Source: Branchiostoma floridae | Lineage: Eukaryota > Chordata > Leptocardii > Amphioxiformes > Branchiostomatidae | Direction of reading: 5' to 3' | Assembly: GCF_000003815.2 (NCBI RefSeq) | Contig: NC_049982.1 | Span: 22,305,311 to 22,369,310, forward strand | DNA length: 64,000 nt | Part shown: positions 4,151 to 59,824 of the stretch, piece by piece | Layout: each line of letters starts with the position of its first letter | How positions within the stretch are numbered: position 1 is the stretch's first letter | Program-made: the position numbers and the translations under genes | The notes under the pieces: generated by a model | Told to the model about the DNA's origin: nothing | The model's input: only the letters and a program-made list of their open reading frames with translations | Databases searched by the model: none

Positions 4151-7100
4151 TGCGTACTTTGTTACCTAATAAAAACTAGCTAATATAAGCAAGGGCTGTA
4201 CAAAACATACAACATTGTCCTTCATTTCTGCACCACTAAGGGCAGACAAAGCTTGACAAGCAAATAATACCATTCTATATCTGTCACCTATAAACAACAA
4301 CTTGAACAAGTACATCAGACCATTTCTCTTAAGCTAGTCTACCTGCACTGATCTTCTAGCCCATACAGACCACACCTTGTCTGATCTCCTAAACAGAAAC
4401 ACGCAATCCTCAATCCTCAAAACACATGCAGAGTCATGATCACTGCCAAGTTCAGACAACAGCTCATCAGTCTTCTTGACGCGGGGCTCCACACTGGGCA
4501 GACTGGCTCAACAATACATTCCATCTTCTGTTCATCATTCCACATGCAAAGTGCTGTTCAAAATATTGGGTACCATTTCCAAATCCCCAATGCTACCCAT
4601 ACTTTCAATTTGCCCTGCCTTATTATTAGTTAAATCTGTATGCCTTTCATGCCCGTTACCATACACACAAAAAATTTGATTTTGTGACTACGAGCTTTAC
4701 CAACAAACATACCTTTAGTAATAACTCCAATGTCAGCCACACCAGCCCTTCTTCTCAATAAGCAGAGTTCGGGCAAATTAAACTGAAAGTAGCAGGTTAT
4801 TCAGACGCGACCTTCAGAGGTCAGGTCCTTTTGTCCTTTCCCTTCAAAGCCAAGAAGTGCTGAAAAGCAAGCACTCAGTCGCTGTACTGACGGAACAGCA
4901 AGCACTCATTCACTGCACTGACTGAACAAGACTGACTCTAACAGGCTCGCTGCCAAACCTATTTTACTTCAGACTCAGAGGGGAATGTTTTCCATCTAGA
5001 TCCTTCCACAGTCCTTTCAATAAGATGTGACTTGACTATTGAGGACCACATACATGAAAGTACATTTGTGTACAAGTGTGTGACTGTTGTACAGTAATTA
5101 GGAATACAGTACAACTTGTCCAAGAAGATCACTTGGGACCGGTAAAATCTGTAATGATTGTGTCGATGGAGAAAATTATCTAAAGGACCACCATTGGTCA
5201 GGTGGTCCATATTGGAGATGGTCATTTGTACAGGTTTGACTGAACAATCTGAATTAATTTTGTATGGTCATTAACATATCTAGCTACTGAAAATAATGAA
5301 TAAAAAATATGACAAGTTCCTGTGGTGACTTTGCATTTTGTCAATAATATCATGCAAATAAGCTTAAAATGTCTCTAATTGCACCTGAATAAAAAAACAA
5401 GCAATACGAAGATGACATACAGTTGTATTCCTGTGATCTAAATCGGAGTAAGTTCAAAGAAGGTTTGGAAACAGACACTCAGGATAAACCAAGTCTTGAT
5501 TTCATGACATCATGTCCAATACTCCAAAGCTGCACATCAGTCCAGATCCTAGTCAATAGCATGATTTCTCTACCATTTCCCTGAATGATATGGACATTGT
5601 AAATTCTGATCACGCAAGCTACTGATTATGGCAAGAGATGCACCTCTGAAAGGATGCCTTTGTGCAGAAATGTACATAACAGTACTTAATCATCATCATG
5701 GTGTTTTACACATTAACAGAGTGGTTAACAATTTTTTGAAATGAATCAAAGCTTGAAAGTCAAATGGTCCTCAAGCAATAATAGTTTCAACAGCTTCAGT
5801 TGCAGCATTGAATCTGGTGAAGTGTGCCCCCTTGTGAAGCTTGTACACACTGCATGTTGAGGGGCTATCCAAGAATCACAAGGAATGTCTTCTTTCACAA
5901 GAATGGGTGTTTGGAATGTTGAATATGACCTCAATGCTCACATATGTGCGTATTCATACATTTACAATCATTATTATGGTACCATGAATCCTTGGTTATT
6001 CTAATAGAGTGGATCCATATAACAAGCCAAGCAAGAGTGAAGATCAGGGCTAACATTTTGTAACAGCCTTCTGCCAGTTGGATAGCCCATGTCACCTCCC
6101 TGGATGTATGACTATCATGCAGACTAAAAATCAAATCAAACTGCATCACAACATCAGAACACTCAGGACAGAGAGAAAGAGAAGGTGGCCGATTCAGGAT
6201 ATAAGAGGAAAGCTTCATCTATCATGGAGTGATCTACAAGTGGAGCATTTGGAGGACTTGATTCTGTCCAAGGAAAAAATCACAGAGCAGCAGATTTGAA
6301 GGGAGAGTCAAACCACCCATGCAGCTCACCTCAGAGAAGCTCCCATCATCCTGCAACACTGCCTCCACACTCAACTGTTGGTGCACAAACCAGTGTCAAT
6401 CTTTGCAACATGCATTACAAGTTGTGCACGTGGTAGTGGTAGTGCAAAACTTACTCATGCAAATAAACAAATAATGTTGGAAAAACACAGGTGCAACACA
6501 AAAACAAATACACATGGCATAAAGAGAGAGTGTAATTTTACATGTACATGCAAGAATGGTTGGTCAGACACAGAGGTGTAATACTATGTACACAAAGTGT
6601 CATGTACATTGTAGTGCTTTAGATACTATTACTTGTAGTTTCATACCATAATCATGTCACCTCCATGACCATGTCATTTTTCCCGACCTGATATGGTTTT
6701 TTGTTCATGTTACTATCATGTAATTGTGGTAAAATCAAGTATGGAATCATTAAATGCTTCATGGTGATCACTCCATGAACATTTGAATCTTGCCTCAGAT
6801 GTCCAATCTCCATCATATAATTTTTATATACTGTCAATCTCTATGTATCTTCAAAATATCTTCTAATTGGATAACAATGTTCTGACCAAAGAGTTATTAC
6901 GCTAAATTAGCAATTAAGCAACAGGATATGCATGGTTTAGAAATGGTCAGACGTTTCCTTTAGCATCCACTACCTTTCCTCAGAGACACTGAAAGGTAAC
7001 AAAAGGTACACATTGATGCTACCTGAAATGTCTGTCTCCAAAACTATATCCAGCTTAAGTAATTTACTATTTTATTACCTGAATGTCTAACTTTCATATA

Positions 7101-41347: not shown

Positions 41348-42332
41348 GGTGTCACAGCGCCCGGGGGGGGAGATCACTAGCGTTTTCGCCCCCCTTTAGC
41401 GCCCCCCCCCCCCCCGAACATTACTAGTACTTCTCGGAGGGGTCTTTAGAGCAGCTGGTTACTACATATTAGGTGCGCTACCTGGTACTATACTGCACCT
41501 GGGAGTAACATAGTTGGTGTGTTACCTGGTACGTATATGGCACCTTATTACCGTAAGATGTCATACCTTGTTCGGTGCAAACACTACATTGAAAAGACAG
41601 TTTTTTTGCAGCTGACATGGCTGAGGTGGCATAGAAAACAATGCTATTGTGAACGTATAAATCAACACCGTATCTGGTACAGAATACTTCAGCTATATGT
41701 TTTCAATTTGTCACAGTATTTTCTTTCTTGTGCAGAAAACATTTCCAAAGCACTAAGAAAAACACAAGTGAATATTAAATTCTCATTATAAACACTATCT
41801 ACGCGCAAGTTGATATACCTGTTGCTAAATGCTACAAAAAACTGGTAAAGTACCAATCTTAAGAAACACGGATAAATGCACCAGTTTCTAAATACTAGAA
41901 AAACCGTCATATTGAAGGTGAAGATACCCATAGGCTAGGTGCATCTAACAAAATGTGCATTATTCTAATGCATTATTGGCATAATCAATAAAGACATTAC
42001 ATAGTTCTTTTGTGGTCAATTCATAGTAGAGACTTCATATTAGAGATGTATAGGTTGCTTGAGGACAGGTGAATACAATGAAAAATATCTTATGTCGAGA
42101 CTCGGGTATCAACTTCTGAAGTGTCATGTAAACCCGTTTCTTTGGGGGGGGGCGAAATCGCTAAAGGGGGGCGAGATCACTAGCCGGGGAGGGCGAGATC
42201 GCTAGTGATTTCGCCCCGGGGGGCGAGATCGCTAGTGATTTCGCCCCGGGGCGGGGGGGGGGGCGAGATCGCTAGTGATTTCGCCCCCCGGGGGGGGGGC
42301 GAGATCACGGGGGACGAGAACGCTGTGACACC
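41348..42332. mobile_element. 985-bp TIR element with G-rich hairpin array
   Basis: 12-bp perfect terminal inverted repeats GGTGTCACAGCG (41348-41359) and CGCTGTGACACC (42321-42332). The subterminal regions carry long C/G runs and, at 42189-42290, three copies of gcgagatcgctagtgatttc+gcc, each a near-palindrome. A third terminus of the family lies at 52602-52613. No transposase is visible. Confidence 0.75.
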
Positions 42333-43692
42333 GGCATACGTTATTTAAAGGTGTACATAACCAAGCATAGATTATGTAAAAGTGGAAGTAATTTGCATAA
42401 TCGGACAATTTCATGGAAATATGAGGTCTACGAACTCTTGTTCTTGCCAGTTTCTTGCCAAACCAGTTTTTCCATTATCGATTGCCGAAGAAAACAATCC
42501 AGTAAACGTCCTCACTCTCTGATTCCCTTTTGTAAGTTGGCATTTACTTAGTTTCTTACAATACTTATTGAGAATCTAGTTTCTTAGAACAGTTATTGAG
42601 TATCTAGATTTAATCCCACAGTTAACTATTCCGTTGCACCTGTTATGAAAAGGAAACGTTGCCAATGGTTTTATAGGTCCCGCCAATGAGGCTTTAATCT
42701 CTTTGCTGCAGAGAGTTCGCCTTTTGGCTTCCAAAATGTAGATCAGCTGGTAATACAAAGTGAATCAAGAACCTCAAATTCGTAAAAAGTCAGCAACCGA
42801 GAATTAGTCTGCAGACAAGTGTAACTAACTAGTCTGTGTAACGTAAACCCTGCTGTCTGGAATCTGGCCCCTATACCCACGCAGGCTTGGTGTCGGCACG
42901 CCGCACAATTTAATATGTGTACCTATTACGTTATATAGAATTTATTTATTTTCATTGTCCCACATGTATAATCTCATCAACTTTATGCAGTAAGAACTGT
43001 TGTTCACTTGCATGCAATTAGCCAACAGGCATGAATTTGCAATAAACTTTTCTGGTAACTAATGATAAACTGATACGTAAATTGAAGTGGCTCCTGAAAA
43101 ACCTGTTGGACTACTGGAGCTGCATGCACTGTTGTGTGTATTAAGCTAACGTAACGAAAAATAGAAATATATACGTTAAGTATACACAAATGATGCCCAT
43201 GACGTACTATTCTCTTTACGTCTTGTATAGTATGGTGTTTTTTATCATACTTTTCGTTCCCTAAAGCTACCTGGCCGGGCCCCGGTTTGGAAATTTGACG
43301 TAGTGGCGGCACTGCCGCCCCCCCCCCCCCTGGAAACCCTACTTGCCGAAACGCCCAACATTCGACACACTAACAGACAAAAGTATACATGTACTGTGTT
43401 AGTGTCAAATTCTAGATCCCCTGCGTACCATACAGAATCATTGTTTACTGTTTTATGTGGTTGTTAGACAAAAACTTAAACTTTTGTCTTGGATTCTATC
43501 CTGTTACAAATACCGAGCCTTCATTCAGCTGACATTTTTACTGCTATGGTTCGACAGTTTTAGTGAGTACCATATCATTATAAGCAATGTCATTCATAAT
43601 AAATCATTCATTCATTTGCCATGAATGTGCATGCTTGATGTTCCCTAGGATTATCCAACTCTCTAGGGCCACCCGTCACTTCCGTGTGTTCA

Positions 43693-43761: not shown

Positions 43762-44062
43762 GTAAAGTACTACTTTCACCTTACTCTGGTCAGTTGATCA
43801 CGCTATATTGATAATTGACCTACAAGGCTTTCAGGATGAGCTATCCAGTCAATTTAAAGGTAAATACAGGTTCAGCTAAAAATCTTTGAGGTGCCTCTGA
43901 ATTAAGTCATGTGTCTCTGAGGTTGTGTGATAATCGACAGTATTCAAAAGGCTGTATGATCGACATTTCATTAGGCGTTTGGAACACAGTTGAATTAGAT
44001 TGATGTGATATTAGCATACAATATAATCATATCACGTTTTTCATGTCATGTAAACGTTGCAG

Positions 44063-44512
44063 TTTTCTTACCAACCGATAATGAACTGGGGCCAACACGC
44101 AACAAACTTCCAGGAAGCTCCAAAGCCAATGTTGAAACTCCACTCAATCAAGAAACCAGTTCAACCAATCAACATCAAGCCACTGACCATCGAGCCATCA
44201 CTTAAACCAATCACCGTCAATCCACTGGTTAAGCAACTTCCAATGGAGCAGCCTCTCCATGTAACATGCTCGCAAAATACTAAGATTGTCGTGCTAAACA
44301 GAGACCGCCCGCATCGTCAAGGAGATGTTCTTACCGCGATTGTAACAGCAAGGGACCAAGAGGGAAGGCCTAAGACGTACGGAGGAGACTTTTTCCGTGC
44401 AAGACTCATCAGGGATGGTTCACCGCAGGCTAGTAGCGCAGGACACATCATTGACCATGACAATGGCACCTACACTGTGGAATTCCCGCTGCACTGGTTG
44501 GGGAATGTTCGG
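44063..44512 (+). CDS. NXPE-like gene, exon 2 (neurexophilin-like domain)
   Basis: 150 codons, phase 0 to phase 0, acceptor aacgttgcAG and donor CGG|GTGAGT. After a Pro/Lys-rich linker (KPLTIEPSLKPITVNPL) comes the immunoglobulin-like NXPE fold: SQNTKIVVLNRDRPHRQGDV, LTAIVTARDQEGRPKTYGGD, FFRARLIRDG and DHDNGTYTVEFPLHWLGNVR. The D..G.P..YGGD..RA.L and D..NGTY...F.L.W.G...I blocks are diagnostic of NXPE1-4/neurexophilin relatives. Confidence 0.93.
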
Positions 44513-45077
44513 GTGAGTACAGTACTTGTAAAAGACTTTATTGTGGACGAATGAAGTAGAATCGTCTGCAACAAAGGATAGCATTGTGTCTATCATTTTT
44601 GCGTTTTCAGTGAATATCATTTTATTTTCTGTCACCCTAACAAACTCCTCTGTCTTCTTCAAAAATGTTGTTAGCACCTTAGAGGTACTCGATGTAAGAA
44701 TAGGATGATATTTGGTCATATTTTCTCATCATTTTGATATTCACATATAAGAAAGTTGAATCAACCCAATCGAATATATGTGAAAAAGTTCTTTCCTTAC
44801 ACGACTCTAGCATTTATATGTACAAAAAGTGAAGTAGACTTACATCAGGTTGTTTGGTGTTTTTTTAGGAATAATGAAATATAGAATATGAATATGAATA
44901 TTTTATAATGACAGAGGTGAATAGAAACATTACATGTATGGTTTTGTTCTCCAACAAAAATGTAATGTAGTTTGCCGCCAAAAACATTTAATAATTTTAG
45001 TACATTTTGACAACTAAATTGAGATATATGGCTATCATTTTGTATTAACCTGATCAGTACTTTATCCTTAATAACAG

Positions 45078-45394
45078 ATTAAGATTCAGCTCGTCCATCC
45101 AAGTGAAGCAGTGAAGGTCCTATGGAGACTGCGAGACATTCCCAACAAGATAGGTTTCCAGTGCTCTTTCTTTGACGAAAAAACGAAGATCACTGAAAAA
45201 CGTGAATGCTTCAGCTCTGCAAGTCCCAGTCTTCAACCTGACCAACAGTGTGATCTGTCAAAACCGGAGGTGAACGGAACCTGGTTTTGTCAAAGACCGA
45301 AGAAAGTTCCATGCACCACCATCGCCAAGTGTCGGTCTTCTAAGGACAGGGTTTTGGGCCTTGTGTCTCAAGAGGAAGTAAAATATTTCCAAAA
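45078..45394 (+). CDS. NXPE-like gene, exon 3
   Basis: 317 nt, phase 0 to phase 2, acceptor taataacAG and donor AA|GTAAGT. It starts IKIQLVHPSEAVKVLWRLRD, the family's 'LVHPSEAV..L.R.RD' strand, then a cysteine-rich stretch (C at GFQCSFF, RECFSS, QQCDLS, WFCQRP, VPCTTI, AKCRSS) typical of the linker between the neurexophilin-like and esterase-like parts. Confidence 0.93.
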
Positions 45395-45726
45395 GTAAGT
45401 TCCATTAACGGCGGCACACTCACAACATGATATACATGCAGTAATATGATAATGATGAAAAACTGTTGTTCTTGTACATAGATGTACATACATGCCTCGA
45501 AGGACTAGGTACTGGTGGTGTATCGTATGACAAAACAAACGTTTAAAAACTAATAGACAACAGTCACGAGTTAGGCAATGCCATTAGACAAAATTCTCTT
45601 CTTCTTTGAACATGTGTAACTGTGATTATATTAAAAACTTGAAGGTGATCCAGGTGATTATGTCATGTTCTCTTTTGGAATTTTCTTCCTAAAATTACAT
45701 CATATTTCATATTTTCCATCAAATAG

Positions 45727-45956
45727 GCCGCATATAGAAGAAGAACTAAAAAACGACGTACCCTTGCCTATCCGTGTCCTTGAGCCAGAACTGCCCACTC
45801 CTCCATATCTCCCAGCATGCACATGGAACATGCCGGATGCTCAGATGAAAGGATTCTGGTTAGGAAAAGTGTGGAAGTCGTCTGTCTGCAACGTACGAGT
45901 CTTCACTCCAGCTGACATCAAACGCTGTCTGGCTGACAAGACCGTGTACATGCAAG
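45727..45956 (+). CDS. NXPE-like gene, exon 4
   Basis: 230 nt, phase 2 to phase 1, acceptor catcaaatAG and donor CAAG|GTACGT. It encodes the segment ending LPACTWNMPDAQMKGFWLGK, VWKSSVCNVRVFTPADIKRC and LADKTVYMQG, matching the region of NXPE proteins just before the GDS motif (.GFW....W....C....F....I..CL..K.VY..GDS). Confidence 0.92.
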
Positions 45957-46402
45957 GTACGTTGTGTAATGGTATTATTCGAGTCCGTATGAGGTCGGTA
46001 TAGAAATCTTAGCCTCTACTGGGCTCCACAGGTCTCTGAAAAAAAGCGCAAATTGGACAAATATAGACAGGTGTTAACCCCCTTTAGACCCCCTTTCTAG
46101 TACTACTATAGACTACGATGGCTGCGCGACCGTACAGCGACCAAAATTGGATTTGTGTCATCTTTGCTTTCATCCTAAATTTGGATATGATGCAAGATAT
46201 AAAGTGTAAATTAAGAGACAAGATAATTGTTCTTTATCTATAAGATTCGTTGAGCGATCTGTTAAATATTTAGTTGTTATATGATTGCAACCTCTAATGG
46301 GTAGAGGGTATAATGCTACAATATACTTGCTGAGCCGTTTGTTTACAGTACATATTGGGTAATTAAACTGGATTTAGATACATTTCAATCTGTCTCTTCC
46401 AG

Positions 46403-46483
46403 GTGACTCCACCCTCAGACAGTGGTACATCAGGTTTAAGGAGTTGCTGACGTTGAACATCACTGAATCTGGGGATTATTCTG
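46403..46483 (+). CDS. NXPE-like gene, exon 5 (GDS motif of the PC-esterase-like fold)
   Basis: 81 nt, phase 1 to phase 1, acceptor tctgtctcttccAG. It begins with the split Gly of GDSTLRQWYIRFKELLTLNI. GDSTLRQW is the block-I motif of PC-esterase/GDSL-like hydrolases, with the Ser in the nucleophile position. Enzyme activity has not, to my knowledge, been firmly shown for NXPE proteins, so 'esterase-like' is structural. Confidence 0.92.
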
Positions 46484-46899
46484 GTTTGTCTTCTTTTCCA
46501 TTTTCAAAATAACCTATACATCTATAAATGCTAACATTTGAAGTCCCGGGCCCGGCCGAGTAGTTTAGGTGAACGAAAAGTATGATGCAAAAGACACGAT
46601 GAACACAAATTGTACCAAAAATTTCTCAAGAGAATAACTTGCGTATATCTATCTTGATACAATTTAATTTTCCCTTTCCGGCTCGGCTGGGCCCCGGCTG
46701 GGTCCTGGCGTAAGTACTGTAGTTATTTCACTATGCTGCTCCCTGACACGAATGGGCAGCAAAAGTGACTTATATTTCTTACCCTGCTTGCTATTTGCAT
46801 AGTCAGAATATTCATGAGGATATGTGGTCTCCGAACTCTTGTTAAATCTTTATCCAGTATAGGAATTCAGCTTACCTAAAGTAGATATTTCTGTTACAG

Positions 46900-47414
46900 T
46901 TTTGGAATACGGAAAGAACAGCTATTGGAACATCACCATCCGTTACCGCTTCCACTATCTTCCCATCCAGGGGAAATTCTGGCTTCCCCTCTCCCAGCTC
47001 AGTTATGCCGCCGATCAACTGGATACCATTCAAGGAGGACCGAACACGGTGATAGTCCTGGGTCTGTGGGCTCACTTCACAGCAGAGCCGCTTGAGGTGA
47101 TCCAGTCACGACTGTACGCCATCCGGCTCGCTATACACCGCCTTCTGCACAGGGCTCCTGGCACAAGGGTTTTTGTGAGAACCGGAACAACTCGAGAGCA
47201 CAAGAATGGCAAGTTGCAGCACTACCTGCTACGTAGTGACTGGTTGGCGTACCAGATCACGGAAATGATACGAGAGATGTTCCTGGGAGAACCAGGTGTG
47301 GTCGTGTTGGACACGTGGGACATGAGCGTGTGTCAGCCGGGGAAAGACAACGTTCACCCAGATCAAACCATGGTGGACAATGAACTAAACGTACTGTTGT
47401 CTTACATCTGCTAA
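46900..47414 (+). CDS. NXPE-like gene, terminal exon
   Basis: 515 nt, in phase 1, ending TAA at 47412-47414. The joined gene is 554 codons including stop (553 residues), the usual NXPE length. It contains FHYLPIQGKFWLPLSQL, TVIVLGLWAHFTAEPLEVIQ, RVFVRTGTTREH and the closing DNVHPDQTMVDNELNVLLSY IC; the Asp-x-x-His of DNVH is the second catalytic-type motif of the PC-esterase fold. Poly(A)-type AATAAA motifs follow at about 47524 and 47573. All key motifs are intact, so the gene appears functional. Confidence 0.95.
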
Positions 47415-50821: not shown

Positions 50822-51350
50822 GTTTGTTCCAATGAATCCCCGTGCCATTCCAAGGACACGGTCATCCATAGATAGGGGCCTCCCCACAACAATGTTGTCA
50901 GGATCAGTTGCGACACCCTTTTCACTTATTATACGGCCTAGTTAATACTTTACTTCCTTCTGGGAGAGGCAGCACTTTGAGGGCAAAAGTTTCAGACCAT
51001 AGTACTCTAATCTACTGAGGACAAACTCCAGCCTTTTCAAATGACTTTCAAAGGAGCCTGAGTACACAAATATATCATCCTGATAGATAAGCAGAAAATG
51101 AAGATTTTTGATCGCCCAAACATTCATCATAACACGCTGACATGTACTACAGGACCTTATGGGCATTATTTCCCTTTTACATGAACCCAAAGGGGTTACA
51201 AATACTGTCCTCCTTGTCTTCTTCCTCGACAGGAATCCCGAGAACAAATCTAACGAATTGAAGACCTTGGCGTTTCCTGGGGCTTCAAACGATTCCTCAA
51301 CTCGAGACAAGGGAAACGATTAGTCATGTGTAACCGTCTTCAAATGACAA
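50822..51350 (-). pseudogene. Decayed Ty3/gypsy reverse-transcriptase fragment
   Basis: The minus strand encodes RT pieces: SRVEESFEAPGNAKVFNSLD then LFSGF, TVFVTPLGS, LLIYQDDIFVYSGSFESHL with the catalytic Y-x-D-D box, GLKLLPSKCCLSQKEVKY and, in another frame after a stop, GRIISEKGVATDPDNI. These are the ordered blocks of a Ty3/gypsy RT. Small deletions remove parts between blocks, at least one frameshift and stops are present, and no LTR, RNase H or integrase was seen. It is a dead, truncated relic. Confidence 0.85.
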
Positions 51351-52689: not shown

Positions 52690-53128
52690 TTGCAGTACAT
52701 GTAGGTCATTTGCTTCCAAATTTGGTGAACCAAGGAGCTCCCTTCGGCTCTTGTGACTTGTTTTACAGCTAGTGGACGGTGTAGTCGGGATCGCGGGGAG
52801 AAAACGCGGATTAAAGACCATACGTCACTTCAGGTCATACACACGGTTACTCTTGTTGTATGGCGGAGGGATACGTCAGGCTTAAAGTGGCTGTTAGTGA
52901 GAATGACTGTTAAGCCCTAAGGCCTAGCGTATTTCATCCATGCTTATAAATACTCCGGACTTGAGAGGAAGCGACCCCCCACAAAACATCATGTTGTGAA
53001 AATTGAGTACTGCTGAGAAATCCACTTCCTTCAGTCCCACTTGGACCGTCTCCTTTATACAGTTTCTGTGCCCTCTGAGTTGACGCTCACGTGCTGATTT
53101 CTCTGGTTTGCCTTGCTGTCATTCAGAT
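52690..53128. repeat. Low-copy diverged repeat, copy 1
   Basis: Shares with 59195-59612, in order: ttgcagtaca, aaatttggtgaa, gacggtgtag, cgtcacttca, tgtatggcggagg, 'cccacaaaac', 'aatccact', and cttgctg..attcagat. The TIR element begins directly at its end. Confidence 0.7.
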
Positions 53129-53866
53129 GAGGGTCTGCATGCCTTTTTCCGTTAAGCGTTACGAGACATTTTAATTCACCGTTAATCGTTACCGACCCGC
53201 TCTAATTCAATGTTAACCGTTATCGGTGTATTATTCGTGAAGCGTTATTGGTCGTTTTAATTCAACGTTAATCGTTATTTGTTATCCCATATTCACCGTT
53301 AAGCGTCACCAAGAACTTCTTCGTAGCCCGTTATACCCACGAAGTCAAATGCCAGATAGAACCCCTGGAAATGCAAGAAATGGTGTTTCAATGGGTCCAG
53401 ATTTCAAAATTCCCCCGAGCCTCCCAGCCTTCGGCTCTGGACATGGTAGATATGTTGCGGAAGCGTCGCCCTCAAAAACTTTATCACTCATACAGATTTC
53501 AGTGTCAAACTTAGCTTAGTTTCGGGCAAAAAGCACTCCCAGAATGCAGAAAATGAGGTTTCTCCGGACTTCCCTTGCGACGGCTTGCGCCTTTGGCGCT
53601 CACGACGACATGGCGAAAATATGTTAGGGGCGTGGGTCGTCGCACAAAAAAACCTTTTCTCTCTAATAAAATGTCATTTAATTTAGCTTCGTCTTACAGC
53701 AAAATTTGTCTTTCAAAATGCAGTAAGTGGCGTTTCAGACGGTCCATATTTTAAAATTTCCCGTCTCGTGCCTTCCGAGCCGTCTCGTGCCTTCCTAGCC
53801 TTCTCGTACCTTCCGAGCTGTCTCGTGCCTTCCAAGCTCGAAATGGTAAAAATATGTCGGGGGCTC
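53129..53866 (+). mobile_element. Left half (738 bp) of a TIR element, truncated
   Basis: Begins with TIR GAGGGTCTGCATG, followed by subterminal variants of ccgttaagcgttacc and diverged internal units of about 170 bp, each starting near aaatgcag. It is colinear with 55655-56392 over 738 bp with no length difference and only about six mismatches, then stops abruptly after gtcgggggctc. The flank TCAGAT (53123-53128) is repeated at 56939-56944. Confidence 0.85.
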
Positions 53867-55227
53867 AGCAAAATTTGTCTTTCAACTCGCTTGTACAATA
53901 AAATGGAAATGTGTCGTCCGCATTATCAACAACAGCCACACCTACATGATCGAACTAGAACAAAGTATGTCGTACCTGTTATGATATTCCAAACAATTTG
54001 TCTTGTGTCGACGCAGCAGTCTCTTGTTTGACAATTTGTCAAGCAAGGGTATTGCTCTACTACACCTTTGAGCTGATGTGCGAATCTTTTTGTAGTGCTA
54101 GTCACGCGGGACAAATTTGCGAAATGCGAATTTGCAATGTGATATGTATGAAGGTCAAAGGTTTTGAGTCGTTGTACCGATTGTTTTCGACTTTCCCATG
54201 GTAAAGTAAACATACGATGCAGTACAGATAGAGGTTTTTAAGGACAAGGAGATCAAGAGTTGAGGGGTGGATACATCCCCTGAAGTAATCAACTTGAATT
54301 GGTTCAAATGACGGATCAATGTCTGCAGAACACATTGACAGGTTCTAATTGATTTTTATTGTTCCCCACCCTACAATATGGTTTGTTCGCCTTTAGGCAC
54401 CTTTACATCCCAAAGCTAGGCCCCCCGCAAACATAATTCACATAATTTTACAGGCATTTACATAAAAAATACTCGCCACTCACCTTCCTCTATATATGAG
54501 CGTTTTTTCCGAGCAGGTCATACACTCTAGATAACAGAAACACCAAAAGGCTTTAGAGGTTGAGAGGGTTGACAGTTTGTCCACAAGAGTAGAAGCCTTG
54601 TCACGTCTTAGCCCCTTCCCTGGTTGGTTCTATGTATTCTTCTACTCAATTCTACTCAATTACTATTGATCTTATCGTTGACGTACCAAAGAGCAGGGGG
54701 TCCAACCTACAACTTGCTCTTTGTTATGTCTCAAGGAAAACAAATTATCCAACGATTGAACCGCTTTAACGAGTTTTTGTTTGCTTACGCCCCAGTGAAA
54801 AACGTCTTGTTGTCATCCATAAAATTTACTTGCTGTGGCCTTAGTTAACCAATGCAATGAAGAACTCTTGCTCACTGATGGTAAGCGCAAATTTTGATAA
54901 GCTATCTGGGGGACTATGTACTACCTACAAAGTCAACCCATGACCATTCTTTCCGCAGCTGTTCAAACAAAAGCATTTATCAAGGTGAATTCTTTTCAGT
55001 TCAGTGTGTCCGGTGGATTGACATTTCGCTAATTGCGTGTACACTGACTGTCATAGTAAGCGTAAATTCTATCATTCACTTCAAAACTTATTTGCTGAAG
55101 TTAACGCCCAGCCGGTCGCCCTTTGTCTGTAAGATGAGTCATGGCTTTGGAACTTTTCTGTACACCCCACACTGTCTGACTTTGCAGATACCAGTTTTAG
55201 CCGTTTCGCGCGTCAGGGAATTCCATG
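53867..55227. other. Unique segment between the two TIR copies, upstream of the patatin-like exon
   Basis: Starts with agcaaaatttgtctttca, a fragment also present inside the TIR element (53700), then 1.3 kb of AT-rich DNA. An open frame at 54894-55322 overlaps the patatin exon in another frame and lacks supporting motifs. Confidence 0.45.
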
Positions 55228-55240
55228 GTCGCCTGGCAAC
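55228..55240 (+). promoter_or_regulatory. RFX X-box upstream of the patatin-like start
   Basis: GTCGCC-T-GGCAAC is an exact match to the X-box pattern GTNRCC(N0-3)RGYAAC. It lies 50 bp before the ATG at 55291, within the usual window for RFX-controlled ciliary genes. RFX binding and a ciliary role are inference. Confidence 0.55.
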
Positions 55241-55290
55241 GTTTCGTCTCATTTCCGTTGTGTCTAGATCGCATGCGCTAACTAAAACGA

Positions 55291-55497
55291 ATGGGGAATT
55301 CGGCGGTGAGGTACGACACTGAACATTTTACGGCACTGAACATTAATTTTCATCCTTTATTGAAACAAAATGGGGCAGAGTTGCCCCACGATCTTGGGGA
55401 GGCAGCTAGAAAGTTCCAAGACTATGACTTCCCGTTCGAGAACCTTGTGTTAGAGGGAGGAGGGGCAAAGGGAATCGCCTATGTCGGGGCGATGAAG
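55291..55497 (+). CDS. Patatin-like phospholipase, first coding exon (partial gene)
   Basis: 69 codons from ATG (context ACGAATGGG) to AAG|GTGTGT, phase 0. The N-terminus is MGNSAVRYDTEHFTALNINF; the end, FENLVLEGGGAKGIAYVGAM K, is the patatin first strand and glycine-rich oxyanion-hole loop (GGGAKG). Patatin enzymes hydrolyse lipid acyl esters with a Ser-Asp dyad. The GxSxG serine and DGG/DGA aspartate exons were not found downstream; a 1.3-kb TIR element sits in the following intron and two N-gaps follow. This is either the start of a gene continuing out of view or a captured fragment. Confidence 0.8.
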
Positions 55498-55584
55498 GTG
55501 TGTGATCTTTCTACTGGTAGTGAAGTGCAATAGAAAACTCTTCTGCGAGCCTTATATGTTCTGAATGTCTGAGAGTGAGTGTAT

Positions 55585-55587
<3 letters not shown>

Positions 55588-55638
<51 letters not shown>
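55588..55638. repeat. (GT)n microsatellite
   Basis: About 51 bp of uninterrupted GT between the patatin-like exon donor and the complete TIR element. Confidence 0.95.
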
Positions 55639-55639
<1 letters not shown>

Positions 55640-55654
55640 CAAGACAAGATATAT

Positions 55655-56938
55655 GAGGGTCTGCATGCCTTTTTCCGTTAAGCGTTACGAGACATTTTAA
55701 TTCACTGTTAATCGTTACCGACCCGCTCTAATTCAATGTTAACCGTTATCGGTGTATTATTCGTGAAGCGTTATTGGTCGTTTTAATTCAACGTTAATCG
55801 TTATTTGTTATCCCGTATTCACCGTTAAGCGTCACCAAGAAATTCTTCGTAGCCCGTTATACCCACGAAGTCAAATGCCAGATAGAACCCCTGAAAATGC
55901 AAGAAATGGTGTTTCAATGGGTCCAGATTTCAAAATTCCCCCGAGCCTCCCAGCCTTCGGCTCTGGACATGGTAAATATGTTGCGGAAGCGTCGCCCTCA
56001 AAAACTTTATCACTCATACAGATTTCAGTGTCAAACTTAGCTTAGTTTCGGGCAAAAAGCACTCCCAGAATGCAGAAAATGAGGTTTCTCCGGACTTCCC
56101 TTGCGACGGCTTGCGCCTTTGGCGCTCACGACGACATGGCGAAAATATGTTAGGGGCGTGGGTCGTCGCACAAAAAAACCTTTTCTCTCTAATAAAATGT
56201 CATTTAATTTAGCTTCGTCTTACAGCAAAATTTGTCTTTCAAAATGCAGTAAGTGGCGTTTCAGACGGTCCATATTTTAAAATTTCCCGTCTCGTGCCTT
56301 CCGAGCCGTCTCGTGCCTTCCTAGCCTTCTCGTACCTTCCGAGCTGTCTCGTGCCTTCCAAGCTCGAAATGGTAAAAATATGTCGGGGGCTCTGGGGATG
56401 GAGGTCAAAGCTATAACCATGTGTAATTTTATGAAAATGTCAAAATCAACCTAGCTTAGTCTGTCGGCAAAATTTGCCGAAAAATGCAGGAAATGACATT
56501 TAAGAGGGTCTTGATTTTAGAATTTTCCCTGGGGAGCATACCCCCGGACCCCCTGGGATGCATCGCGCCTTCGGCGCTCCATGTGCTGAAACAATAGTTC
56601 AATCCCCCCATAAGAGATTTGCTGCCGCCGTCTCTGTGACGGGCCGGGAACTCTGCCTCCGTCAATGTACAGATGCCATGGACATTGTCCCTTTCATTCC
56701 TCTGGGTTCTGGGCACCTTTTTCTTCTCACAATGCCATTAGTCGGATATTTGCACCCATTGATATAACTACTCTACCGTTGTATGAAAAGGAATGCACGT
56801 CAATGTTACCGTAATGCTTTGTAACTCCTTCTGAATTTACCGTTAAGCGTTACCGGGCCTCCTGAATTCACCGTTAAGCGTTACCGGGCCTCCTGAATTC
56901 ACCGTTAAGCGTTACCAAGACCCCCCATGCAGACCCTC
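55655..56938 (+). mobile_element. Complete TIR element, 1284 bp
   Basis: Inverted termini GAGGGTCTGCATG (55655-55667) and CATGCAGACCCTC (56926-56938). Three copies of accgttaagcgttacc lie near the right end and variants near the left. Internally there are four diverged units of about 170 bp. No transposase frame is visible. Its left flank (gacaagatatat) does not match its right flank (tcagatattcagat), whereas the left flank of the partial copy at 53129 does. Confidence 0.85.
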
Positions 56939-57085
56939 TCAGATATTCAGATCGGCGAAGGTCACGGAACAGGTAATGATCAGGGAACAGTCTGCAGTTA
57001 CTAATAAAGGGTTAATGCCCCGGCACCGAGGTGTATATGGTGAGATAATTCCTGGGTACCGGCTCGAGGCTTGACGGCACTGGGC

Positions 57086-57323
57086 NNNNNNNNNNNNNNN
57101 NNNNNNNNNNNNNNNNNNNNNNNNNNNNNNNNNNNNNNNNNNNNNNNNNNNNNNNNNNNNNNNNNNNNNNNNNNNNNNNNNNNNNNNNNNNNNNNNNNNN
57201 NNNNNNNNNNNNNNNNNNNNNNNNNNNNNNNNNNNNNNNNNNNNNNNNNNNNNNNNNNNNNNNNNNNNNNNNNNNNNNNNNNNNNNNNNNNNNNNNNNNN
57301 NNNNNNNNNNNNNNNNNNNNNNN
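57086..57323. other. Assembly gap (238 N)
   Basis: Run of N. Frames crossing it are meaningless. Exons of the patatin-like gene could be hidden here. Confidence 1.
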
Positions 57324-58291
57324 CGATGGAGGTTTTATACTTGGTATAAGCACAGTACGTCGTAAGTCGGGGAAGAATCGGAAGCAATGGTTTAAATATA
57401 TAAAGCCGTGGTCACAAGGATCGTAGCGCGTCGTACGATGAGGTCATAAGAGTGTATCAGCGTCAATCGCAGGTGAATCATAGTAAATCGGGGAGCCTCC
57501 TATGACGAAAATGGAGCTGAAATAGATTTTGAACATGTTCAAAATTCCTCCATCGTCGTACGATTTTTATTGCCCCCATATCAGACTTCATTGTGGCCAT
57601 TTTTTCTTCTGATAACTTTAAAGATTCATACATGTGGCCATGGTTTCAGTTTCCCCTGATATTGTCGATGTTGACGAAAAAGGAAACTATATCAGTCGCA
57701 ACGTTCACAATAGCAACTAGAGAACAGCGCGCCCGTAGAAGAGTCTGCATTCAAGGCAAAGTTTTCCACTAGACGGATTCCGTATCACGCACAGGTGATG
57801 CATGTATTTGCTTGATGGCTACATACACGTGGGTTCATAATTAGATGAAATCTCATCTCTCGCCGGTCTCTGGTCAGTTAACCATAATCGTAACCATGGG
57901 GACAACTCGAACAGAAAGGCAGGCTTATGATATAATGCTCATGATATGATTTTTGTCTGATGACATTTATTCCTGATAGCATATCATCACAAAAAAAGTA
58001 AAGTATGATTTTCGATAAAGCCTGACTCGTAGAGCCGGCAAGCAGGCCGAGATAATCATACCAGTACTTGTGCTTGATTTGAACGTTTGTTTGTAAGACT
58101 CATGTTGTTATGGTTAACGTTTCTTTTGATTTGTTTTCAAAAGTGAAAGACCATTATATGAAGGTATTAACAGGTAGGTGCCATATATGACGGATTCGAG
58201 CTCGCTACCCTACGATTTTTCTCACTTGTGTCTCTTCTGCATAGAACGATGAGCCGCTTGTGTATAATTACCATCCATTCCCTATCCTTCT
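57324..58291. other. Between the two gaps: no gene recognised
   Basis: AT-rich unique-looking DNA with a small inverted repeat (cgtcgtacgat at about 57429 and 57553). No exon or splice chain is supported. Confidence 0.5.
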
Positions 58292-58391
58292 NNNNNNNNN
58301 NNNNNNNNNNNNNNNNNNNNNNNNNNNNNNNNNNNNNNNNNNNNNNNNNNNNNNNNNNNNNNNNNNNNNNNNNNNNNNNNNNNNNNNNNNN
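58292..58391. other. Assembly gap (100 N)
   Basis: Exactly 100 N, the conventional size for a gap of unknown length. Confidence 1.
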
Positions 58392-58579
58392 TGGCCTGAA
58401 TCTACGTGTTACGGCGTCATAACCAACGTGGAACGGGGCCTTCTGATTGGTCCGCGGTGCCTGGCTATATGATAATAGAATTGAAACCATGGAAACTAAA
58501 TTATGTGCTCCCCCGTCTACTCAGAGGCTCTCTTTAGGGGATTATGGAGCGAGGATCTGTCAAGAGTAGTTGATTACGA

Positions 58580-59190
58580 AAAAGTCAAACCGGGTACGTT
58601 ATATTCTAGATTGTATTCAAAATTATGACATGACCCCGTGCGTTTAGGAGGGGAGGGGGGGGGTCTGTATTTTCCCTTGTAATAGATGATAAGTTGTATA
58701 TAGAAAGTAGAATCTATGCTCAAACATACACACTACATTTCCCGTTGGTGTCTTGGTGACTTATCTATAACAGGTTAGAAACGATATAATGGGAATTTGC
58801 ACCAATACCAGCTGATTTCGGATCATACTATTGATAAAACAACGTTGGACCATTGATTTTTGTTAGATTATATACTTTATCATCAAGTCAGCGAGCGGAC
58901 TACTTTCTCTCGCGAAAGGATAAGAAAACTGCACAAAACTCTCGACGTCACAGGTGCGGCGGCTGCACCGAAACTGAAAACAAATGGAGAGATTTTACCT
59001 GATATTTTGTCTCTGTAGTTAAAATATCATGTTAATCTGTCGCTAGGTTGGTTTAAGAGTGGTTTAGATTGTTCCTGGCCGCGAGAACTGTCAACAGCGA
59101 GAAGGAAGTTTAGAATCCTGACCGACTGGACTTCACACTTTCCTTGTCGTGGTTTCCATACGGTAAGTCCTTGATCATGAACATGAAGAG
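58580..59190. repeat. Low-copy diverged repeat related to 48700-49310
   Basis: 'gtcaaaccggg', 'agttgtata', 'gaaa.tagaat', 'gggaatttgcaccaat' and gataaaacaacg occur in the same order in both places, the other copy being split by a SINE. Confidence 0.6.
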
Positions 59191-59194
59191 CCAT

Positions 59195-59690
59195 GGTTGC
59201 TCCTTCCAATTGCAGTACACGTAACGTTAGGTCGTTTGATTGTAAATTTGGTGAAACAAGGAACTTCATTAAAAGTTGTTGTGACGATAAAGAATCTAGA
59301 GGACGGTGTAGCCGGGACAGCAATGCGAATGCGAATAAAGGCCATGCGTCACTTCAAGTCAAACACACGCTTAACCTTGTGTATGGCGGAGGGGCATTCC
59401 ATTTCAGACTGAGCGTGGCTGTTGAATGGCTGTTTGCCTGACAGAACGCGGAGGCGACAACCCCACAAAACACCAATGGGAGTGTAGATTTGATAGTGAT
59501 GGAAAATCCACTTTATTCAGCCCCACACTCCCTAGTCGTTTCTGTACATTCAGCTAACATTACTCGCGTGGAACCGATCTCCGTGGTGCTCCTTGCTGAT
59601 ATTCAGATAGCTTAAGGGCACGGAATAGGTAACGGATCAGGTGACAGCTATTTCGCACTGTGCTTTGAAACCATGGTAACTAGGTGGCGT
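59195..59690. repeat. Low-copy diverged repeat, copy 2 (unoccupied at the TIR site)
   Basis: Homologous to 52690-53128; at its end (59596-59640) cttgctgatattcagatagc, 'agggcacgg' and 'aataggtaacggatcagg' continue where copy 1 is interrupted by the TIR element, and the continuation is found after the second TIR copy (56945-57000). Confidence 0.7.
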
Positions 59691-59824
59691 GCGCTCCATC
59701 CACCAGACAATTTCCTGTTGGTCTAAAATCTATAAAAAGTTAAAAAAAACGTCCAACGTAACTAATATATTAAGTAATACATGCAAATCGTGCAGATTAC
59801 TATTTCTCTTTACGTCATATGTCT

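Follow-up and report, generated by a model that had tools for sequence, protein, structure and literature searches.

The start of a patatin-like gene lies between one and a half copies of a transposon in the lancelet Branchiostoma floridae, and the whole forms a single 3.8-kb insertion. The insertion is part of a 64,000-nucleotide stretch of DNA (the window; C4:22305311-22369310 of a 513-Mb assembly of 431 contigs), in which a preliminary description had proposed a composite of the form A-X-A-B, with a patatin-like exon 1 carried in X. This architecture was confirmed by a target-site duplication (TSD) common to both outer ends, a contiguous empty site and only 5 mismatches over the 738 bp that the two element copies share. 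The best reading is that a non-autonomous TIR element gave rise to a composite insertion similar to a Pack-TIR or a macrotransposon. Repair of a break, in which the template switched between two sister copies, is narrowly favored over a two-element, cut-and-paste macrotransposon. The coordinates of the features are listed in Table 1.

Table 1 Features of the composite insertion and its unoccupied site (window positions).
Feature	Position	Strand	Basis or remark
Left outer TSD, TCAGAT	53123..53128	.	Sequence; 6-bp TSDs in 32/38 family copies
Truncated left element copy (A), 5' TIR and first 738 bp	53129..53866	+	5/738 mismatches to the full copy
19-nt filler, element positions 570-588, 1-nt overlap at junction	53867..53885	+	Exact match
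Foreign DNA X, single-copy: older dispersed repeats, putative promoter, exon 1, start of intron 1	53886..55654	+	Assembly-wide DNA search
X-box-like (RFX) match, GTCGCCTGGCAAC	55228..55240	+	Pattern match, 51-63 bp upstream of ATG
Patatin-like exon 1, 69 codons, GT donor at 55498	55291..55497	+	tblastn to paralogs
ATATAT adjoining inner left end, likely original target of right copy	55649..55654	.	Score 3.30
Full-length element copy (A'B), 1284 bp, 13-bp TIRs	55655..56938	+	
Right outer TSD, TCAGAT	56939..56944	.	Sequence
Paralogous unoccupied site	59193..59648	+	Alignment to joined flanks; two-copy local repeat

The left copy aligns without gaps to 55655-56392 of the full-length copy, and 733 of the 738 positions are identical (99.3%); approximately six mismatches had been claimed before. 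Both copies are in direct orientation. The full-length copy has perfect inverted termini, GAGGGTCTGCATG, and subterminal CCGTTAAGCGTTAC-type repeats. The element family is dispersed in the assembly; of 2096 first-look candidates, 40 received a score, and the identity of most others among these, gaps included, is 84-88%. An exact 6-bp TSD adjoins perfect or near-perfect 13-bp TIRs in 32 of the 38 other family copies examined with their flanks; the ends of the remaining six (L008, L042, L049, L056, L059 and L068) were misplaced, shifted or missing as the script placed them. Removal of seven of the 38 for odd structure or unresolved ends left 31 clean copies, which have a mean pairwise identity of 94.0% and are 96.5% identical to their own consensus; the window copy is 93.8% identical to that consensus. 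Dada elements have a 6-bp TSD and targets in U6 genes, according to the available text of PMC3706591. Assignment of the window element to the Dada superfamily is unsupported, because the family targets are dispersed and AT-rich. Among the papers listed by literature searches, none dealt with the element or with Pack-TIRs of lancelets.

At each of the five differences between the window copies, all 31 clean copies side with one of the two, and the derived changes number four in the left copy and one in the right. Common to both window copies is a 40-bp expansion of a 19-bp repeat, of which 30 of the 31 clean copies contain no bases and one contains 2 of the 40. The pair also shares 24 substitutions that occur in none of the clean copies (688 columns compared), whereas the maximum of private shared substitutions among 465 other copy pairs is 9. 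Outside the window, the expanded stretch is spanned only by a weak match on C15 (75%), among 40 scored of 215 candidates. Small insertions at 516-519 and 626-627 were dropped as lineage evidence because they are present in 14 and 16 of the 31 clean copies, respectively, that is, in about half of them. The expansion and the 24 private substitutions indicate that the window copies descend from one individual element lineage and are not two random family members.

The outer TIRs are both bordered by TCAGAT and the inner left end, preceded by ATATAT, is not, just as had been described. A chance 6-mer match at the local base composition is expected at ~ 3e-4, and the matching TCAGAT pair behaves as a genuine TSD. 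Target preference was scored with a matrix built from 32 family TSDs and compared with random hexamers. Only 1.3% of random hexamers reach the score of ATATAT; as this is a family-favored target, the right copy was probably first inserted there, next to X. TCAGAT scores -2.79, a value reached by 70% of random hexamers, and the family minimum is -3.30.

When the outer flanks are joined with a single TCAGAT, they align continuously to a local paralog. The claim of a homologous empty site that crosses the junction near 59596-59640 is thereby borne out. The local score of the last 88 nt of the left flank together with the first 52 nt of the right flank was reached by none of 500 shuffles, whereas the scores of two inner-flank controls were reached by 353 and 476 of 500 shuffles and these controls have no match in the paralog. 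An assembly search placed two copies of the paralogous unit in the assembly, both at the window locus. Relative to this unit, the right flank is broken by ~ 1.5 kb (56991-58480) that includes N gaps at 57086-57323 (238) and 58292-58391 (100). On its two sides, 56942-56990 matches 59598-59647 and 58481-58513 matches 59665-59697, and the interruption may be a second, independent insertion. No N occurs between 52800 and 57085. Elsewhere in the window, exons of an NXPE/neurexophilin-like gene are present at 44054-47411 on the plus strand and a reverse-transcriptase fragment at 50942-51319 on the minus strand.

At the inner break, element position 738 is followed by the 19-nt filler, which the preliminary description had missed, and then by the foreign DNA X. 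The filler looks like the templated filler left by break repair, and it points to template switching. A DNA search of the assembly with 53867-55654 found no second copy of X; the partial matches elsewhere are to the exon, at 77-86% DNA identity, and to older repeats. Segments 54426-54711 and 54841-55022 of X are collinear with C16:1642390-1643805 (74-80%) and have weaker matches in other places, which suggests that they are older repeats inside the captured DNA.

Exon 1 is homologous to genomic paralogs and contains a GGGxxG motif (GGGAKG), as in a patatin-like gene; its match to Pfam Patatin is partial (E 0.01, 16.5 bits, below the 27.7 cut-off). The search of the assembly found 30 patatin exon-1 loci including that of the window, and the best of the other 29 is 73% identical over 40 residues. 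The suggested "duplication" of a living parent gene is unsupported because X is single-copy and no near-identical exon 1, or parental copy, was found among those 29 loci. With one exon 2 as the query, 29 exon-2 loci were identified, none of them on C4. A same-strand exon 2 is present within 10 kb, at distances of 175-6752 bp, in 29 of the 30 exon-1 loci (two pairs of C9 exon-1 loci share one exon 2 each), and the window exon 1 is the sole one for which none was found within 10 kb. Outside N gaps, patatin exons 2-6 had no convincing match in the window or in the 10 kb that follow it; the gaps, not visible to the exon search, are the two mentioned above and 1675 N just past the window end. The strongest downstream-exon match was a 52-residue exon-3 alignment located upstream, at 42279-42434 (E 0.02); another covered 22 residues on the minus strand of L073 (E 0.011). 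The stretch 58524-58595, considered as a further patatin exon, matched no patatin exon and no Pfam family.

The captured DNA had been described as a mobile, RFX-driven lipase start. The GTCGCCTGGCAAC site, which we take to be of the RFX type because it fits the X-box pattern, is the only match to this pattern on either strand of the window, and a match occurred in one of 200 mononucleotide-shuffled 800-bp stretches. In 15 distinct paralogous loci, namely L084 and 14 of the other 29 exon-1 loci, the 800 bp preceding exon 1 contained no X-box match. The window match itself is real, and control by RFX would rest on this one match. The term lipase start is an overstatement. Presumably GGGAKG and the catalytic Ser (GxSxG) and Asp (DG(A/G)) regions all have roles in patatin-like phospholipase; the exon has the first without the other two, and exons with GxSxG and DG(A/G) were likewise not detected across the window and the following 10 kb, N gaps apart. 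Lacking the nucleophile and aspartate regions, the exon alone cannot encode a lipase. It would now be an orphan 5' gene piece, able at most to provide downstream DNA with a promoter or first exon. Mobility, too, is hypothetical, the composite being single-copy in the assembly, and any function of the exon or promoter as a mobile gene start is speculation.

We infer the order of events and the repair route as follows. The leading account, which we hold tentatively, is that the composite arose by break repair of a resident element from a sister copy in a patatin gene. One sister element would have inserted at TCAGAT at the window locus, and a second member of its lineage would have entered intron 1 of a patatin-like gene, at ATATAT. 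The resident element would then have broken near position 738, with repair templated by the copy in the patatin gene. The right side would have re-entered by homology within the element, and synthesis would have left the left end of that element, continued through exon 1 and the upstream DNA of the gene, and switched to the internal 19-nt element stretch before end-joining to the resident left half. The product would be A-filler-X-A'-B inside the original TCAGAT duplication; the donor gene, absent from the assembly search, would be lost, polymorphic or unassembled. A single event of such gap filling would account for the truncated left copy, the filler, X and the repetition of the left half. 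It is supported by the 99.3% copy identity, the shared expansion and the 24 private substitutions against a maximum of 9, by the matching outer TSD with a different, family-favored inner target, and by the contiguous empty site and the filler. The composite is also single-copy, like most animal Pack-TIRs in the available text of PMC8277862. However, the donor in gap filling is copied, so X should persist elsewhere, and none was found in the assembly. A donor was not revealed by an orphan exon 2 either, for which the two exon-2 loci without a listed exon 1 were checked. The one on C19 proved to have an exon 1 of its own. In the one on C10 (L085, C10:6524001-6531500), the patatin exon 2 at 6773-6919 is protein-identical to that of a neighboring C10 gene, and no exon 1 was detectable in the 7.5 kb, in which an N gap of 100 bp precedes exon 2. 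Two further points count against gap filling. No member of the lineage is known beyond the two window copies, which also fits local duplication of one element, and TCAGAT matches the family target preference poorly, though inside the family range.

Macrotransposition is a serious but less probable possibility. An element in patatin intron 1 (at ATATAT) would have given a second, upstream copy by a local hop or tandem duplication, this upstream copy would have lost its right half, and the outer ends would have been jointly cut and pasted to TCAGAT with exon 1. The two elements have compatible outer ends and one shared TSD, they belong to a single private lineage and lie as direct repeats, and X is single-copy, as expected after cut-and-paste. 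The process is known for Ac in maize, as described in the available parts of PMC9910405 and PMC4270019. However, three steps are required (the second copy, a deletion with filler and the joint transposition), and a donor remnant with exons 2 onward but without exon 1 is expected, of which none was identified in the assembly. That this is a natural animal macrotransposon, in which two linked 6-bp-TSD elements moved, and did not copy, a promoter and first exon as a unit, seems to us possible but doubtful; the composite is single-copy and no donor footprint was identified. Since neither donor nor remnant was found, the evidence for gap filling and macrotransposition is nearly balanced.

One-ended or sister-chromatid aberrant transposition with re-replication, the type seen for composite insertions in maize, would account for foreign DNA that abuts an exact element end at one junction and has been joined by repair at the other, and composite insertions with repaired junctions are described in the available text of PMC4270019. 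It is nonetheless improbable. Re-replication duplicates the element's own flanks, and X has no match in the 3.1 kb left of the composite or in the 7.1 kb right of it, apart from 44 bp in its GT-repeat tract, which is weak evidence if the donor lay elsewhere. A native patatin gene at this locus, with the two elements as independent intronic or upstream insertions, is more improbable still: the N gaps in and just past the window could hide exons, but no convincing exon 2-6 was found outside them up to 10 kb past the window, an exon 2 lies no more than 6.8 kb away in each of the other 29 exon-1 loci, the flanks run on without a break in the paralogous empty site, and the outer TSD matches while the inner flank does not. 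An assembly artefact, either false duplication or haplotype joining, is just as improbable, for although the locus is known from one assembly and lancelets are highly polymorphic, the sequence across 52800-57085 is free of N and the five differences, filler junction and matching TSD are hard to make by misassembly.

In bacterial composite transposons, two element copies flank the cargo. The window insertion likewise has element copies on either side of its cargo; unlike them, its left copy is truncated and the unit is single-copy. In plants, there is good documentation of TIR elements that have captured gene fragments; for animals, 370 cases were reported from 100 genomes surveyed (Tan et al. 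2021, PMC8277862). In the available text of that survey, animal Pack-TIRs are mostly single-copy and attributed to gap filling; a parental copy was required in the main scan, and a relaxed human scan without it was also reported. Like these Pack-TIRs, the window insertion has a single-copy, non-TE host fragment between parts of one TIR element, inside one TSD, and a repair-type junction inside the element, with its 19-nt filler and 1-nt overlap. The captured DNA is a 5' gene piece, and one frog Pack-TIR holds a 5' UTR. Unlike the Pack-TIRs described there, the window insertion has a repeated left half (A-X-A'-B), a right junction exactly at the element terminus and no parental copy found elsewhere, X being single-copy and the best other exon 1 only 73% identical over 40 aa. 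As in the maize Ac/Ds macrotransposons and composite insertions described in the available parts of PMC9910405 and PMC4270019, two linked elements enclose host DNA, the outer ends are compatible with one TSD and the inner break is repaired; unlike those, the window case is from an animal, involves a non-autonomous family with a 6-bp TSD and forms a unit that is only hypothetically mobile. The event, uptake of a gene piece by mobile DNA, is clear and of a kind already known, and is not unprecedented; as an animal example it is of moderate interest. The insertion is also a young one whose TSD is intact, whose filler junction can be read and whose empty site survives locally, and from it the order of events can be resolved base by base.
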